This document shows positions 32,233 to 39,139 of a stretch of DNA of 64,000 bases, piece by piece; the first letter of the stretch is position 1, and each line of letters opens with the position of its first letter. The translations under genes and the position numbers were made by a program. The stretch covers positions 1-64,000 of the forward strand of contig JACPUU010000012.1 in NCBI GenBank assembly GCA_016192075.1, in the 5' to 3' direction. The notes beneath the pieces were generated by a model that saw nothing but the letters and a program-made list of their open reading frames with translations, was not told the origin of the DNA and searched no databases. The DNA comes from Bacteroidota bacterium. Lineage in GTDB: Bacteria > Bacteroidota > Bacteroidia > Flavobacteriales_D > Crocinitomicaceae.

Positions 32233-34269
32233 ATGAAGATTAAAAAACTACTCCTCGTATTGTCGCTGGCAATGGGCATTTCTTACGCCCAGTCAGATAC
32301 AACCTTTTTTGCCGGAGTAAAAGAGTTGCAGGAGGTTTTTGATAAGGCCAATTATGCTCCCGTTGGTTTTACCGATACCTCACTCCGGGTTATTGATCAG
32401 ATTTCAAAACGCCGGAATTCTGATAAACAAATGGATCGGTCAGTTTACCTTGAAAAACAAAAAGAACTGATTGAACGCGATTACGGCCTGGCAATAACAG
32501 GCAGTTACCTGGAGAATATCAACCCAACCATCGGAGACCTGGAAGATAATTTGTTCTACAGCCGCAAATTCAGTGCCGGCGTTGAATGGAACCTGTTAAA
32601 TGACGGTTATTTTGAAAACCAGGTTCAGTCACGCATTCTGGAAGATAAAATTCAGCGTTCACGAATGATGAATGACGCAACCGACGAAAGCTTTCATTAC
32701 CTGGAAAGGTTTGATTACACCATTTACATTTTCAACAAAGTAAAAATAGAATTGCTGAATGAGCGTAAACAGCAGCTGGAGAAACAATACGACATTGTTT
32801 CAGAACTGGTTTATCTGAAAAAACTGACAAAAGAAGAAATCATCAACCTGCAGACACGCCTGGCTGAGGTTGAAAGCCTGATCAACGTTTACAAAAGCTA
32901 CAATGATTATTTGGGTGTGCAGGATGACAGCGCAACCTTTGATATTGAAAACCTGCCGTTGATTGATTTGAACTACGAACACATTTTTTCACTGCTTGAA
33001 ATGCAAACAGACAGCCTGCTTTCGACCAGTGTTTATGAGGATTATTACAGCTGGTACCACCAGGTAAACTTAAGTCCGTACCTGCGTTACAATTATTATG
33101 ATCTGATTGGCGACAGTTACCGGAATTATTTTACGGCCGGGCTTACCTTTTCAATGCCAATTCCGTTTAATCATAAGTTGCAGAATGAAATTGAGTCAGA
33201 AAAATGGAAGTATGACAATGAAAAACTGGTGCAGAACCGCATTAACCTGCAGGAAGATATTTTGAATACAGGTTATGAATTCCGGTACAAACTCAAACAG
33301 TTTATCAGTTTTTACCAGAAACGTGTTTTGTTTATGGAGCGCCTGCGCATTGAAAAGGTAAAAGTGCGGCTGGGTGATGTAAATGTTGACCCGCTTGGCG
33401 GACTTGATTTGTATGATGACCTGGTGCAAATTGATATTGAACTGGTTGATTTACTTCAGAATTTATACCTGAAAGCACTCAAAATTCATTCGCGCATACC
33501 GCATGCTGACATTCGTGATATTGTGATTAACCAAACTACCGAACAAATGAGTGAGTACCTGGACAAAAAAAACAGGGCTGTTTATGTGTGGAGCAAAACA
33601 TTCGAATCAGGTTCGGCTGTTTTTCTGGCAGAGTATGCCGTCTATAATGCGTTTAGCGACGTACTTATTTCGGTTGAAGAAAATGATACGCTGCGCAAAG
33701 AGAAAAGTCTGTTCATGAATTATGCCGCTGAAAATGGTAACGTTTATTTTATGCTGGGCAACAACAACCTGATGTTTGAAGAAGATCCGCTGGCGTCTAT
33801 TTCCCGCATTCTGAAAGCTTACGACGGATTTGTACCGGAAGGAATTCACCTGGACATTGAACCGCATACCTTTGAGGAGTGGGGCAGTGACAAGCAGCGT
33901 CTCATAAACCAATACCTTGAATTTGTTGGTAAGGTAAGTACCTATTGCAAAGAAAATGAGCTGGAGCTTGCGGTTTCAATACCGCTGCATTATGGTCCTG
34001 AAGTTGTTGATCAGCTCTTGGGCATGACTGACCAGGTTTATTTTATGTGCTATGAAAATGTGAAGATCGATTACCTGGTTAATAAACTGACAACCTATAC
34101 GGACAATGCGCTCGAAAAACTGTTTGTAGCTTTGCGTACAGAAGATTTTACCAGCCGGATGGAAATGGAAGAAAAGGTAAATGAAATTGAAAAGCGAACC
34201 GGAATTACGAATTTTGCGTATCATGATCTGAGGCGGATGATTGCGTTTGACCGGAAAAGTATTGAGTAA
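32233..34269 (+). CDS. TolC-like outer-membrane protein fused to a glycosidase-like TIM barrel
   Basis: 678 residues with a signal peptide (1-20). Residues about 30-435 look like an outer-membrane efflux (TolC) protein: two repeats, each with strands (AITGSYLENINPTIGDLEDN, SPYLRYNYYDLIGDSYRNYF) flanked by long charged helices. Residues about 445-678 are a separate domain of alternating strands and helices, with IHLDIEPH (Asp541, Glu543), LAVSIPLHYG, QVYFMCYEN and FVALRTEDF, a pattern of TIM-barrel glycoside hydrolases. An export channel carrying a sugar-cleaving or sugar-binding domain is unusual. Its stop overlaps the next ATG by 1 base. I am confident in the outer-membrane half and less so in the hydrolase half. 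Confidence 0.8.
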   Translation: MKIKKLLLVLSLAMGISYAQSDTTFFAGVKELQEVFDKANYAPVGFTDTSLRVIDQISKRRNSDKQMDRSVYLEKQKELIERDYGLAITGSYLENINPTIGDLEDNLFYSRKFSAGVEWNLLNDGYFENQVQSRILEDKIQRSRMMNDATDESFHYLERFDYTIYIFNKVKIELLNERKQQLEKQYDIVSELVYLKKLTKEEIINLQTRLAEVESLINVYKSYNDYLGVQDDSATFDIENLPLIDLNYEHIFSLLEMQTDSLLSTSVYEDYYSWYHQVNLSPYLRYNYYDLIGDSYRNYFTAGLTFSMPIPFNHKLQNEIESEKWKYDNEKLVQNRINLQEDILNTGYEFRYKLKQFISFYQKRVLFMERLRIEKVKVRLGDVNVDPLGGLDLYDDLVQIDIELVDLLQNLYLKALKIHSRIPHADIRDIVINQTTEQMSEYLDKKNRAVYVWSKTFESGSAVFLAEYAVYNAFSDVLISVEENDTLRKEKSLFMNYAAENGNVYFMLGNNNLMFEEDPLASISRILKAYDGFVPEGIHLDIEPHTFEEWGSDKQRLINQYLEFVGKVSTYCKENELELAVSIPLHYGPEVVDQLLGMTDQVYFMCYENVKIDYLVNKLTTYTDNALEKLFVALRTEDFTSRMEMEEKVNEIEKRTGITNFAYHDLRRMIAFDRKSIE

Positions 34270-35375
34270 TGAAGAGTCTGAATTTCAAACGGAAAGAGGA
34301 TAGCTACCTGCGCTATTTTGATGAAACCCAGAAACGGTCAGTGAAAAAACCGTTTAACTGGGACAGGCTGATCTATATTGTATTGCTATTAATCACCCTC
34401 TTTTTTGTTGGAAAATTTATTGTTAAACGGTACTTCTACATTGAAGGAAACGGACAGGTTTTGTTTGAAAGTGTGGATATCCGGCATACCGATGACATAC
34501 GCATTTACAAATTCTTTAAAAAAGAAGGGGACGATGTGAAAATAGGCGATACCCTCTTTACCTATTTTCTGGATGAAGATGTTTATGGAAACGGTGGGGG
34601 CGGTGGTGGAAATTCAGTCAGTATTTCAGATGCCAGCGGCGATGATTATTCCTGGATTGAGCGCGAAATTTATTCACTGCGCAAAAGTATTGACCTTAAT
34701 ACCGTTAAAGTAGGAGATAACAATAAACTGCTGGCAATTTACCGCAAAGACCTGGAGCGCGTGCGCAATGAGGTTATCCTGGATGCCGTTTCTCATACCA
34801 ACCTTGAAAATCTCGAATATCAGATAACACGGCTTGAAGCAGACAATAACCTGCTGAATGAACAAAACCGTATTTTCCGCAGGCAGATTGGTTACCTGAT
34901 GGATCTGATGAAGAAGGAAGATGACCAGGAGCGTATCAAAATTAACCAGACAGGTCACGTCATGCTCACCGGTGCTGAAAATGATTCAACCTTTAAAATA
35001 TTTACCTCACCCATTGAAGGCAGCATTACCCATATTGAAAAACAACCGTTTGAAGTGGCCCTTAAAACAGAAGTAATTCTGTCTATCCACCAGCCAAATT
35101 ATGTACACATCAAAGGATTCTTTAACCAGGAAGATTTGCGTTACCTGCGTGAGGGAGATGTTGTGGATGTTGAGTTTGCTGACGGAACAACAAGCATTGG
35201 GTACGTTGACAGATTCTATTCAGCCACCTACATTCTGCCTGAAGAGTTTCAGAAAAAGTTTGAGCCTACAACCCGCACACTGGCCGCCGATATTTTACCG
35301 CTTACGGTAGATGATCTCGAGCGCTGGAAAAAGTATTACAAGCTCAGTGTAACAATTACTAAACGTACATTCTAG
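34269..35375 (+). CDS. HlyD-like periplasmic adaptor protein
   Basis: 368 residues. One membrane helix (about 34-52) follows a basic cytoplasmic N-terminus. Then a lipoyl-like half (GQVLFESVDIRHTDDIRIY, about 62-104), a glycine-rich linker (GNGGGGGGN at 107-115), a coiled coil (about 128-225, RKSIDLNTVK to RQIGYLMDLMKKEDD) and the second lipoyl half with a beta barrel (FTSPIEGSITHIEKQPF onward). This is the plan of HlyD/MFP adaptors that join an inner-membrane machine to a TolC channel, here the upstream gene. It overlaps that gene by 1 base and abuts the following gene exactly. No ABC or RND pump is encoded nearby. Confidence 0.88.
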   Translation: MKSLNFKRKEDSYLRYFDETQKRSVKKPFNWDRLIYIVLLLITLFFVGKFIVKRYFYIEGNGQVLFESVDIRHTDDIRIYKFFKKEGDDVKIGDTLFTYFLDEDVYGNGGGGGGNSVSISDASGDDYSWIEREIYSLRKSIDLNTVKVGDNNKLLAIYRKDLERVRNEVILDAVSHTNLENLEYQITRLEADNNLLNEQNRIFRRQIGYLMDLMKKEDDQERIKINQTGHVMLTGAENDSTFKIFTSPIEGSITHIEKQPFEVALKTEVILSIHQPNYVHIKGFFNQEDLRYLREGDVVDVEFADGTTSIGYVDRFYSATYILPEEFQKKFEPTTRTLAADILPLTVDDLERWKKYYKLSVTITKRTF

Positions 35376-36800
35376 ATGGAAGCAGCGGGAGCATCAAATA
35401 TTAAAGTTACCGATTCAGTTATTGAATATTCTGGTTTTACCTTTTTGCTGCTGGATGCGCTCGACAGCCTGAGTGTAGAAAAAGTACAATTCAACAATGC
35501 GGTAATAATTGATGGTAAGGACCCTGATTTTATCCGCCATATTGTTCGCCGCATCCGTTCTAACAACAGCCCTGATATTTACCTGAAGCCTATTTTTATT
35601 CTGAAGGGAATCAATATCAATGACCCGTTTGTAAACAGGCTGTGTGACGGAACTATTTTTTCACTCGAACAAATTGAATTCATCATACCTACTGTTGAAA
35701 AAATTCTGACCAAGGTGAATGATCTGAAGTTTACAAACTCAATTTCGTTTGAGGCGCAGATGATTGAAAAAACCATCAACTTCATGTATACCTGTGATGT
35801 GTTTGACCTTGACCCGGTGCCGTATGTCTATTCCGGCATAAACTATTCATACCCCATTTTATCGGTAAATTTCAGACAGACCGAGGAGTATTCAGTATTG
35901 GATATTCTGGATATTGCTGAGCGCGAAGGTATTTTTGAATCAGAATATTATGACCGTGTGTACCTCTGTTCAAACTGCTCAAACGGCCATTTAACCTATC
36001 GTGAAGTTTGCCCCAAATGTGGAAGTTCTCACTCAAGTACAGAAGATATTGTACACCATTTTCCATGCGGTTATGTGGGCCCTATCACTGATTTTAAAAA
36101 TGAGATTGATGACCAGTTGGATTGCCCTAAGTGTGATAAACGGTTACGGCATATTGGTGTTGATTACGATAAACCGTCTATTCTGCATGAGTGTAAAAAC
36201 TGTTCGCATAAATTTCAGGATTACAACGTAAAAGCCAAATGCCTGAATTGTCTTACAGATAATGGTGTTGAGGTACTAAAGGGGCGTGAGATCCGCCGTT
36301 ACCGGCTGACAAAAAAAGGAGAGTTGGCAGCTATTAATGGTTTTGTTTCAACCTCTAAAGACATTGATGAAATTATTGGAACTGTAAAATTTGACACGTT
36401 CAAAACCATGCTCAAATATGAGATTGAGCGTTTGCGTCAGACAGAAGGATCAAGTAATATCTGTGCCATTCACATTACCAACCCGTCACAGGTTTATTCC
36501 AAAATAGGCAGTGAAGTTCAAAAGGGCCTGTTAAAAGATTTGGTCCGCGTTATCCGAAGCAACATTCGTTCATCAGACGTTATTACGTTTCAGAGTTCAT
36601 CAACCATTGTGTTGTCTATGAACGAAATTCCTATGCGTATTGCCAAGCGTATTCTGGAAGAGATTATCGTGATGCTGAAGCGGCTTATGAATACGGCGTT
36701 CAAAAACATGGAGGTTAATTTTGAAACCAATGTAATGTCGCTGGATTATAAGTTGTCGCCGGAATTGCACATTCAGCAGCTGACCAAAGAATTTAAATAG
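35376..36800 (+). CDS. TackOD1/zinc-ribbon protein with a degenerate GGDEF domain keeping an RxxD I-site
   Basis: 474 residues, no signal or membrane helix. Residues 1-190 fit the TackOD1 output-domain type. Residues 198-292 hold zinc-ribbon pairs C198-C201, C212-C215, C250-C253, C273-C276 and C289-C292, plus C231 near His227-228. Residues about 335-470 have the helix-strand pattern of a GGDEF domain (TFKTMLKYEIERLRQTEG, then VQKGLLKDLVRVIRSNIRSSD). In the active-site turn the GGDEF signature is replaced by SSSTI (407-411), but RSSD (398-401), exactly five residues before it, matches the cyclic-di-GMP inhibitory-site motif RxxD. It therefore probably binds rather than makes cyclic-di-GMP. Start is the ATG abutting the adaptor stop. 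Confidence 0.8.
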   Translation: MEAAGASNIKVTDSVIEYSGFTFLLLDALDSLSVEKVQFNNAVIIDGKDPDFIRHIVRRIRSNNSPDIYLKPIFILKGININDPFVNRLCDGTIFSLEQIEFIIPTVEKILTKVNDLKFTNSISFEAQMIEKTINFMYTCDVFDLDPVPYVYSGINYSYPILSVNFRQTEEYSVLDILDIAEREGIFESEYYDRVYLCSNCSNGHLTYREVCPKCGSSHSSTEDIVHHFPCGYVGPITDFKNEIDDQLDCPKCDKRLRHIGVDYDKPSILHECKNCSHKFQDYNVKAKCLNCLTDNGVEVLKGREIRRYRLTKKGELAAINGFVSTSKDIDEIIGTVKFDTFKTMLKYEIERLRQTEGSSNICAIHITNPSQVYSKIGSEVQKGLLKDLVRVIRSNIRSSDVITFQSSSTIVLSMNEIPMRIAKRILEEIIVMLKRLMNTAFKNMEVNFETNVMSLDYKLSPELHIQQLTKEFK

Positions 36801-36810
36801 GGTGTTATGA

Positions 36811-37740
36811 ATTGCAGCTCCGAATCTGCGTGCATCAGCGGAAAATACGTTTGAGAAATGAAAGAAGGCACATCATATCTCCCGCAGATTTTCGCGGATT
36901 TAAATTCGCAGATCGGCGCTGATCTGACAACGAATCGCAACTTAAAATCTGCGTGCATCAGCGTAACTTATCTGCGTGGATCAGGGGGAAATACGTTTGG
37001 GAAATGAAAGAAGGCATATCATATCTCCGACAGATTTTCGCGGATTTAAATTCGCAGATCGGCGCTGATCTGATAACGAATTGCAGCATAAAATCAGCCT
37101 GCATCAGCGTAACTTATCTGCGTGCATCAGCGGGAAATACGTTTGAGAAATGAAAGAAGGCATATCATATCTCCCGCAGATTTTCGCGGATTTAAATTCG
37201 CAGATCGGCGCTGATCTGATAACAAATTGCAGCTTAAAATCTGCGTGCATCAGCGTAACTTTTCTGCGTGTATCAGCGGGAAATACGTTTGGGAAATGAA
37301 AGAAGGCACATCATATCTCCCGCAGATTTTCGCGGATTTAAATTCGCAGGTCGGCGCTGATCTGATAACAAATTGCAGCTTAAAATCTGCGTTCATCAGC
37401 ATAATTTTTCTGCGTGCATCAGCGGAAAATACGTTTTAGAAATGAAAGAAGGCATATCATATCTCCCGCAGATTTTCGCGGATTTAAATTCGCAGATCGG
37501 CGCTGATCTGATAACGAATTGCAGCATAAAATCAGCGTGCATCAGCGTAACTTATCTGCGTGCATCAGTGGGAAAATACGTTTGAGAAATGAAAGAAGGC
37601 ATATCATATCTCCCGCAGATTTTCGCGGATTTAAATTCGCAGATCGGCACTGATCTGACAACGAATTGCAGCATAAAATCAGCGTGCATCAGCGTAACTT
37701 ATCTGCGTACATCAGCGGGAAATACGTTTGAGAAATGAAC
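36811..37740. repeat. Tandem array of 146-bp repeats (about 6.3 copies)
   Basis: The GAAATGAA landmark (G of its ATG) recurs at 36860, 37006, 37152, 37298, 37444, 37591 and 37737, so unit lengths are 146, 146, 146, 146, 147 and 146. Each unit holds GATTTTCGCGGATTTAAAT, the dyad CAGATC-GGCGCT-GATCTG, and two copies of ATCTGCGTGCATCAGCG; GCGGGA and TCCCGC flank the stretch between units. The copies are 90% or more alike by eye. It is not a gene: 146 is not a multiple of 3. It lies between the TackOD1 and GT2 genes; 37741-37825 is unique sequence with no recognised element. Confidence 0.95.
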
Positions 37741-37825: not shown

Positions 37826-39139
37826 ATGTTTGAAGAAATCATAGATAACTATGTGCGGTTTTTGGCGAGTCTCACCGTCGATCACTTCATCCGTTTATTC
37901 TGGTTCTTCATTTTTTTTGAGTTTATCCGTTATTTTCTGGTTGAGTTTGTTGTACTTAATTTATGGCGGCTGAGCAAGTGGCTGAACAGGGATGTCTATG
38001 CAAGGGCGCGTGAAGAATTTCTTTTCGAAAATCCGCTTATTTCCATTATCATTCCTGGCAAAAATGAGGGAAAACACATTTACAAACTCATCAATTCACT
38101 CAAAGAACAAACGTATCATAACATCCAGATCATTGTCATTGATGATGGCTCAGACGATGATACACCAACCATTGGCCGTGATCTTCAGAAAGCAGGTTTA
38201 ATAGATTTGTTTATCCGTAACGAAATTCGCGGGGGTAAAGCATCAGCAGCCAATTTTGGATTGCGTTTTACCAAGGGTAAATTTATCATTCACATGGATG
38301 CCGATTGTTCGTATGACAATGACGCCATCGAAAAAATTATTATTCCGTTTTATATTGATAAAGAAGTAGGCGGGGTTGGTGGAAATGTTCAGGTGCGTAA
38401 CTACAAAGAAAGCCTGGTAACATCGTTGCAGGCGATTGAATATTATGATACCATCAGCATTGGCCGGGCAGTTACATCATACCTGGGAATTTACCGCATT
38501 ATTTCAGGTGCTTTCGGTGCTTTCAGGGCTGATGTGCTTGACCAGGTAAAAGGCTGGGACATTGGCCCCGGACTTGATGGAGACATTACAGTAAAAATCC
38601 GTAAACTGGGATATAAAATCAGGTTTGAGCAAGACGCTGTTTGCCTCACGTCTGTTCCAAACACATTCAAAAAACTAACCAAACAACGCTTGCGCTGGGA
38701 CAAATCACTGATCCGTTTCAGGGTCAGAAAACACAAAGACGTTTTATTTCCAAACCAGGCGTTTAAGTTTGCTAATTTTATTGCGTTTGTAGAAAACATT
38801 ACCTACAACCTCATTCTGAATTTTAAATGGTATTTCTACCTGGTTGACATGGTGGTTAATTATCCGTCTATGATTCTGAATATTCTGATCACCAACATTC
38901 TGCTTTACACCATTACCAATTTCACCAAGTTTGTGATCTATTCACTTTACCGGCCAAGAAGCAATGCGCCGTATTCGTATTTCCTGGTTTATATTCCGGC
39001 GATGGTATTTTATTTCGGGTATTACCTGCGCATTGTGCGCACAATTGCGTACCTGCAGGAATTTTTCTTTAAGCTGTCCTACAAAGATCCGTGGAACCCT
39101 GAAAAAACATCGGTGCACGCACGACGGTTGAAATTATAG
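37826..39139 (+). CDS. Membrane GT2 polysaccharide synthase
   Basis: 437 residues, GT2 family of the BcsA/PgaC/hyaluronan-synthase class. An N-terminal membrane helix (about 20-45) leads into the catalytic domain: DDGS with Asp106/107, DAD at 158-160, DGD at 251-253 in the acceptor (TED-like) position, and Q287-R-L-R-W291, the QxxRW motif of processive synthases. Four or so C-terminal helices follow (from about 310 onward). No PilZ domain is present, so cyclic-di-GMP control would need another protein, which the upstream TackOD1 gene could provide. The gene follows the repeat array in the same direction and overlaps the kinase gene tail by 6 bases. The sugar is unknown. Confidence 0.9.
   Translation: MFEEIIDNYVRFLASLTVDHFIRLFWFFIFFEFIRYFLVEFVVLNLWRLSKWLNRDVYARAREEFLFENPLISIIIPGKNEGKHIYKLINSLKEQTYHNIQIIVIDDGSDDDTPTIGRDLQKAGLIDLFIRNEIRGGKASAANFGLRFTKGKFIIHMDADCSYDNDAIEKIIIPFYIDKEVGGVGGNVQVRNYKESLVTSLQAIEYYDTISIGRAVTSYLGIYRIISGAFGAFRADVLDQVKGWDIGPGLDGDITVKIRKLGYKIRFEQDAVCLTSVPNTFKKLTKQRLRWDKSLIRFRVRKHKDVLFPNQAFKFANFIAFVENITYNLILNFKWYFYLVDMVVNYPSMILNILITNILLYTITNFTKFVIYSLYRPRSNAPYSYFLVYIPAMVFYFGYYLRIVRTIAYLQEFFFKLSYKDPWNPEKTSVHARRLKL

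Follow-up and report, generated by a model that had tools for sequence, protein, structure and literature searches.

A possible fossil of c-di-GMP signalling: a TackOD1 protein with a degenerate GGDEF domain in a polysaccharide-type operon of Bacteroidota

Degenerate GGDEF domains in polysaccharide operons have been described for PelD and BcsE. Replacement of any one of R363, D366 and R395 by alanine in the PelD protein of B. cereus resulted in no detectable binding of c-di-GMP and no adherence, and the PelD proteins of streptococci, which are not known to use c-di-GMP, do not contain the GGDEF domain (both PMC7112168). BcsE of the cellulose system carries a degenerate receiver-GGDEF tandem, the dead GGDEF domain of which binds BcsQ independently of c-di-GMP, and the GGDEF domains of BcsE and PelD are both described to be without alpha-1 and to have kept the I-site (PMC7439463). 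The TackOD1 domain is defined by five CxxC motifs and one HxxC motif, and its function is termed obscure in the single paper on it which a literature search retrieved (PMC5847659).

The window analysed here, i.e. the whole stretch of 64,000 nucleotides, contains a gene for a protein composed of an N-terminal module (N-module), a TackOD1 domain and a degenerate GGDEF domain (Table 1). The protein resembles the TackOD1 response regulators of Thaumarchaeota in its five CxxC motifs and its HxxC motif and, in five distant loci, also in the REC-TackOD1 arrangement (PMC5847659). In contrast to them, its TackOD1 domain is fused to a degenerate GGDEF domain, and its gene belongs to an operon of the polysaccharide type in Bacteroidota. 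Similar to BcsE it represents a presumably cytoplasmic, catalytically dead GGDEF protein of a synthase-type polysaccharide system, and similar to PelD its degenerate GGDEF domain is encoded in a putative exopolysaccharide operon and has an RxxD motif in register; unlike in streptococcal PelD the GGDEF domain is retained in the family. A PgaC-like glycosyltransferase is shared with the Pga (poly-GlcNAc) operons, whereas the export of the TolC/HlyD type and the TackOD1-GGDEF protein distinguish the present operon from Pga, in which the partner is PgaD. Compared with the known occurrence of dead GGDEF domains in polysaccharide operons, the new features are the fusion to TackOD1, the hosts without any other GGDEF domain and the exchange of the N-terminal module. 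Among the titles listed by a literature search, none describes this Bacteroidota operon.

Table 1. Features of the operon and of the TackOD1 protein in the window (positions refer to the window, residues to the protein)
Feature	Position	Strand	Basis or remark
TolC/OEP-like outer-membrane channel, C-terminal domain with invariant D-x-E-P-H-like set	32233..34269	+	OEP Pfam match in 15/21 orthologues; window under cut-off
HlyD-like periplasmic adaptor	34269..35375	+	HlyD_3 20.3 bits, cut-off 22.2
N-module - TackOD1 - degenerate GGDEF protein, 474 aa	35376..36800	+	ORF, Pfam, homologues
N-module, residues about 10-122	35403..35741	+	no Pfam match; encoded on its own (109-119 aa) in operons of the receiver type
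TackOD1 zinc-ribbon domain, residues 127-311	35754..36308	+	Pfam E 1.4e-49
Degenerate GGDEF domain, residues 330-474	36363..36797	+	Pfam sub-threshold, profile vs PDB, model, fold comparison
RSSD, residues 398-401, I-site register	36567..36578	+	profile alignment to PDB 3ign
SSSTI, residues 407-411, GGDEF-signature register	36594..36608	+	profile alignment to PDB 3ign
R425, by-eye counterpart of the third c-di-GMP-binding Arg (PleD/PelD-type I-sites)	36648..36650	+	R in 17/81
146-bp tandem repeat, 6.3 copies	36824..37739	+	between TackOD1 and GT2 genes
Family-2 glycosyltransferase (GT2), PgaC/hyaluronan-synthase-like	37826..39139	+	Pfam, TIGR03937, profile matches

A homologue of the protein was detected in 11 of the 59 genomes of the window's relatives, the window's own genome counted, and a match to the TackOD1 profile (PF18551) in 13 of 296 genomes of the phylum, ten of them over the cut-off. 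The conservation counts given below are based on 83 operon-type rows and ten distant rows which remained after removing the copies of the window (L006, L015) and eight duplicates; L011-L013 gave no match. One row (L103) has no letters at positions 398 and 401, and this row and a second one (L037) have none at position 425; both were omitted from the 91-row alignment and from the tree.

The four genes for the OEP-like channel, the HlyD-like adaptor, the TackOD1 protein and the GT2 follow each other in this order on one strand in the 80 loci of the named collection, which are the best 80 of 309 relatives and are biased towards close relatives. The GT2 was found in 77, the HlyD-like adaptor in 76 and the OEP-like channel in 73 of these 80 loci, each miss being located at a contig end. 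In a few loci a match is split over two open reading frames (HlyD in L026, OEP in L043 and L059). In the ten distant loci (26-32% identity) the four genes were detected within 20 kb without exception, with extra genes interspersed in some of them. An additional open reading frame between the HlyD and TackOD1 genes of L065, which had been suspected by eye to encode a deacetylase, was not confirmed as such, as the Pfam matches at E 0.01 were to PKD, sorting and Ig-like domains.

Among other matches, the profile searches related the GT2 to chondroitin, hyaluronan and chitin synthases, and its score against the PgaC model TIGR03937 (158.4 bits) remained under the cut-off of 422.3. The open reading frames in the interval between the HlyD and TackOD1 genes were read in four of the ten distant loci, two of which have a UDP-sugar dehydrogenase (L136, L139) and two an N-module gene (L142, L143). 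The GT2 matches and the dehydrogenase genes support the assumption that the product of the machinery would be a polysaccharide.

The dehydrogenases inside the operons of L136 (7756-9123) and L139 (10716-12083) belong to the UDP-glucose/GDP-mannose dehydrogenase family, which may point to uronic acid as a component of the polymer. The C-terminal part of the channel protein (residues 541-665, 33853-34227) shows an invariant set of residues over 21 rows (D541, E543, H545, Y607, E608, R635, D638, H664, D665), which suggests a putative hydrolase-like active site. The comparison of this domain with PDB sequences gave one weak match to a glycoside hydrolase (E 0.0011, 63 columns), and a sub-threshold Pfam match to GH30 in one channel orthologue concerns a different part of the protein. 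Judged by their length, the shorter channel genes of L136 and L138-L141 may be without the C-terminal domain.

In the window, 1025 bp separate the TackOD1 gene from the GT2 gene, and this interval holds the 146-bp repeat (93% matches). The corresponding interval ranges from -20 to 239 bp (median -1) in the 77 related loci with a GT2 gene. According to a search of the genome with a 31-base part of the repeat unit, this part occurs nowhere else with up to two mismatches.

The TackOD1 domain of the window's protein shows the complete set of defining motifs, with CxxC at 198/201, 212/215, 250/253, 273/276 and 289/292 as well as H228xxC231. In the alignment of the operon rows the ligand positions are invariant in 83/83 rows, C289 and C292 in 82/82.

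The N-module has been exchanged in some of the distant loci. A profile of residues 10-122 was run against 476 open reading frames of the ten distant loci and detected the N-module as a separate gene of 109-119 aa in 5/5 receiver-type loci, and fused to the protein in 5/5 others. In L137, L142, L143, L144 and L145 the separate gene is located just 5' of the gene for the receiver-TackOD1-GGDEF protein. The two receivers that were scanned scored 88.7 and 77.9 bits against Response_reg, while the other three were assigned from the alignment. On the tree the receiver type appears as one change. As the five receiver rows are paired with the N-module in the alignment, the N-terminal region had also been considered to be a degenerate receiver; this was rejected in that form, since each of these loci also has the N-module in a gene of its own. 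The full-length model (pLDDT 81.9, pTM 0.59) has to be read with the reservation that its input alignment is non-homologous over residues 1-120 for the five receiver-type rows, a region on which the GGDEF and TackOD1 counts do not depend.

The sequence-only reading of this gene had proposed a degenerate GGDEF domain, based on the pattern of residues, with the loss of the active-site signature (SSSTI at 407-411) and an RxxD site (RSSD at 398-401) at the spacing of the inhibitory site, and had interpreted the latter as a live I-site in the manner of PelD. Both motifs are present at these residues. The Pfam GGDEF profile covers residues 342-446 with 20.5 bits, under the cut-off of 23.8, and among 50 further carriers only one orthologue (G316) passes this cut-off with 31.9 bits; the assignment to the GGDEF family thus rests on the fold and on the profile comparison with PDB sequences and not on the gathering score. 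In the latter comparison a profile of 91 C-terminal domains matched diguanylate cyclases best (3ign, E 4.5e-7; DgcR, 1.5e-6), and the HMMER alignment to PDB 3ign places R398 and D401 on the RxxD of the I-site and residues 407-411 on GGEEF, so that the register holds beyond the mere spacing.

The model of the C-terminal domain, which was built from the 91-row alignment, reached a pLDDT of 87.5 and a pTM of 0.83. Among the 50 entries listed by VIA-align its best match was DosC (4zve; Z 18.5, rmsd 2.2, 142 aligned), and the comparison with PleD (2wb4) gave Z 17.4 and rmsd 2.3 over 145 aligned residues. Foldseek assigned the full-length model to the same family. According to these models the C-terminal domain is a true GGDEF fold, and the earlier call thus stands, structure prediction having returned this fold rather than a different one. 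PelD was not found among the Foldseek rows or the 50 VIA-align entries listed, a selection too short for this to carry weight. Unlike BcsE and PelD, the modelled domain has helices at residues 53-58 and 62-77 (domain numbering) after the first strand.

The loss of the catalytic signature proposed earlier was likewise borne out, since none of the 92 rows with letters at position 407 has a glycine there. Among 82 rows the position of the first aspartate of the DxD motif (366) is occupied by H in 34, N in 20 and Y in 20, that of the aligned asparagine (374) by Y in 63, and that of the aspartate of GxxxGD (383) by K in 45 and R in 30. In PleD the corresponding residues bind the metal and the guanine. 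Lacking GG[DE]EF and the metal and substrate residues of an active diguanylate cyclase, the GGDEF domain is, as far as can be judged from its residues, enzymatically dead.

A dead GGDEF domain with a remodelled pocket could still bind a different small ligand, such as (p)ppGpp, GTP or a cyclic dinucleotide other than c-di-GMP. This would agree with the persistence of conserved positions near the old sites (N369 in 79/82, G378 in 77/82, D401 in 80/82 and S409 in 69/82 rows) and with the presence of PleD entries with c-di-GMP and (p)ppGpp, judged by title, in the PDB. However, the aligned metal- and guanine-binding positions have been replaced as listed above (H/N/Y, Tyr and K/R, respectively), and we regard such a ligand as rather unlikely.

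The presence of an RxxD motif in register, the GGDEF fold and the location of the gene in a synthase operon, as reported for PelD and BcsE in the sources cited above, could also indicate that the protein is a c-di-GMP receptor of the PelD or BcsE kind which switches on the synthase, at least in the clade of the window. The conservation of the residues concerned is very uneven. R398 is an arginine in 36 of 82 operon orthologues, the remaining ones having T (19), K (16), N (3), S (3), P (2), H (2) or G (1), while D401 is retained in 80 of 82 and replaced by S in two, both from Brumimicrobium. Position 425 is an arginine in 17 of 81 rows, and 15 of these 81 rows, the window being one, combine R398, D401 and R425. 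The distant rows repeat this pattern with D401 in 10/10 and R398 in 2/10. Ranked among the 140 columns of residues 335-474, D401 shares the first place with E349 (80/82 each), and R394 takes the 7th, R398 the 77th and R425 the 136th place. On a tree from which these columns had been excluded, and which was calculated by a quick method and has several long branches, the state at 398 switches between R and non-R at least ten times and that at 401 at least once. The conservation of D401 exceeds chance, while that of R398 over the whole family does not. Strong conservation is also seen at E349, N369, R352, G335, R394 and G378, all of which lie outside the I-site. Non-conservation of the two residues in homologues had been named beforehand as evidence against the I-site; over the family, this holds for the arginine and not for the aspartate.

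The picture is different in the near clade, comprising the rows with at least 46% identity to the window, to which the window itself belongs. Here R398 and D401 are each retained in 28/30 rows, and 24/29 rows carry R or K at position 425 (R 16, K 8, N 5). Crocinitomix catalasitica, a member of this clade, reads RSSD like the window. In the 52 rows beyond this clade R398 is an arginine in 8, D401 an aspartate in all 52 and position 425 an arginine in one. The I-site may therefore have a clade-specific role in the near clade, and these counts slightly raised our rating of a live site, which is still very improbable. As the branches are short in this clade, the retention is weak evidence of function.

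The distinct GG[DE]EF contexts read from the phylum's 30 GGDEF loci with the highest scores, a sample biased to the best-scoring cyclases, further contain an RxxD motif in 25/25 cases. Being usual in the GGDEF fold, its survival in a derived domain requires no special cause. In the two Brumimicrobium loci (L050, L051) the motif reads PTSS, both R and D being gone, and the operon is intact, which also speaks against a live site. The R, D and third R required in B. cereus PelD are not jointly conserved in the family of the window, and TackOD1, rather than GAF, precedes the GGDEF domain (Pfam, E up to 1). The proposed design of PelD, a protein with GAF-GGDEF architecture and conserved binding residues, is thus not supported. 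The protein differs from BcsE, too, in that the arginine of the I-site is not conserved over its family and in that TackOD1 precedes the GGDEF domain.

The gene content of the carriers likewise speaks against a live I-site. In the window's genome (99.94% complete) the GGDEF profile PF00990 matched only the gene described here, and the Pfam search detected neither PilZ nor EAL domains. The search was extended to 60 carriers, namely the window's genome, 50 further ones (ten with G-handle orthologues and 40 from the set of 80 named loci) and the nine genomes of the ten distant loci; completeness, as given for the 20 G-handle genomes, is at least 93%. A GGDEF domain outside the TackOD1 gene was found in one of the 60 carriers (G379, the genome of L067), at two places (E 1.3e-44 and 5.0e-6), whereas all other GGDEF matches map by coordinates to the TackOD1 gene. 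This only carrier with other GGDEF domains reads KSSD at the site. No second GGDEF was detected in the 30 near-clade genomes searched, representing all near-clade rows except the genome of L103, and PilZ was detected neither in the 59 other carriers nor in the window's genome. A GGDEF enzyme as a cellular source of c-di-GMP, as would be expected for a PelD-type receptor, is therefore present in 1/60 carriers.

That the search was capable of finding such domains is shown by the phylum, in which 133 of 247 genomes have a GGDEF match over the cut-off. Of the 135 genomes with any match, those of the window's class are the window's own, G037 and G166; with so few matches in the same class the missing GGDEF domains are a background trait of the class and not specific to the operon. 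Taking into account that the arginine varies in the wider family and that hardly any of the carriers searched has the usual c-di-GMP-making enzyme, the RSSD motif was most likely inherited.

The GGDEF domain might finally be a drifting relic without function. The single copy over the Pfam cut-off among the 50 carriers mentioned above (G316) and the shorter C-terminal end in five distant rows would fit this assumption, but 11 of the 140 columns are at least 90% conserved over about 82 rows. We consider such a relic highly improbable.

The explanation which we favour, and which we regard as probable on balance, is that the protein is a regulator or scaffold of an exopolysaccharide synthase in which the dead GGDEF domain has been kept for its fold and c-di-GMP is not the ligand. 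The gene product would act in the cytoplasm, as regulator or scaffold of an exopolysaccharide machine of the synthase type, in which the GT2 would polymerize the product and the HlyD-like adaptor and TolC-like channel would export it. The retained GGDEF fold would probably serve self-association or the contact with the synthase or the adaptor. The nearest precedent for a dead GGDEF domain as interaction part is BcsE. The RSSD motif would be an ancestral remnant with an aspartate which is held, most likely for structural reasons, and an arginine which is free to vary; since the latter varies across the family, c-di-GMP is presumably not bound. The input would arrive via the N-module or, in one clade, via a fused receiver replacing it, and the signal would then pass through the zinc-ribbon TackOD1 domain as the coupling part.

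Considered as a whole, we see an even chance that these loci represent a widespread exopolysaccharide machine of the Bacteroidota which is run by a fossil of c-di-GMP signalling, i.e. a dead GGDEF domain employed as interaction part in c-di-GMP-free bacteria, with an exchangeable input (N-module or phosphorylatable receiver) and TackOD1 for the coupling. The observations on the family caution against inferring a c-di-GMP site from an RxxD motif when the GGDEF domain is dead, as the aspartate is constrained, the arginine is free and the enzyme making the ligand is nearly always missing in the carriers searched. They further describe a strongly conserved four-gene system of the polysaccharide type in Bacteroidota, by which the orphan TackOD1 domain gains concrete partners, and the swap of N-module and receiver provides a natural experiment on the switching of such synthases without c-di-GMP. 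If the interpretation as a fossil of c-di-GMP signalling is true, the operon would be the first physiological context for TackOD1 in bacteria.
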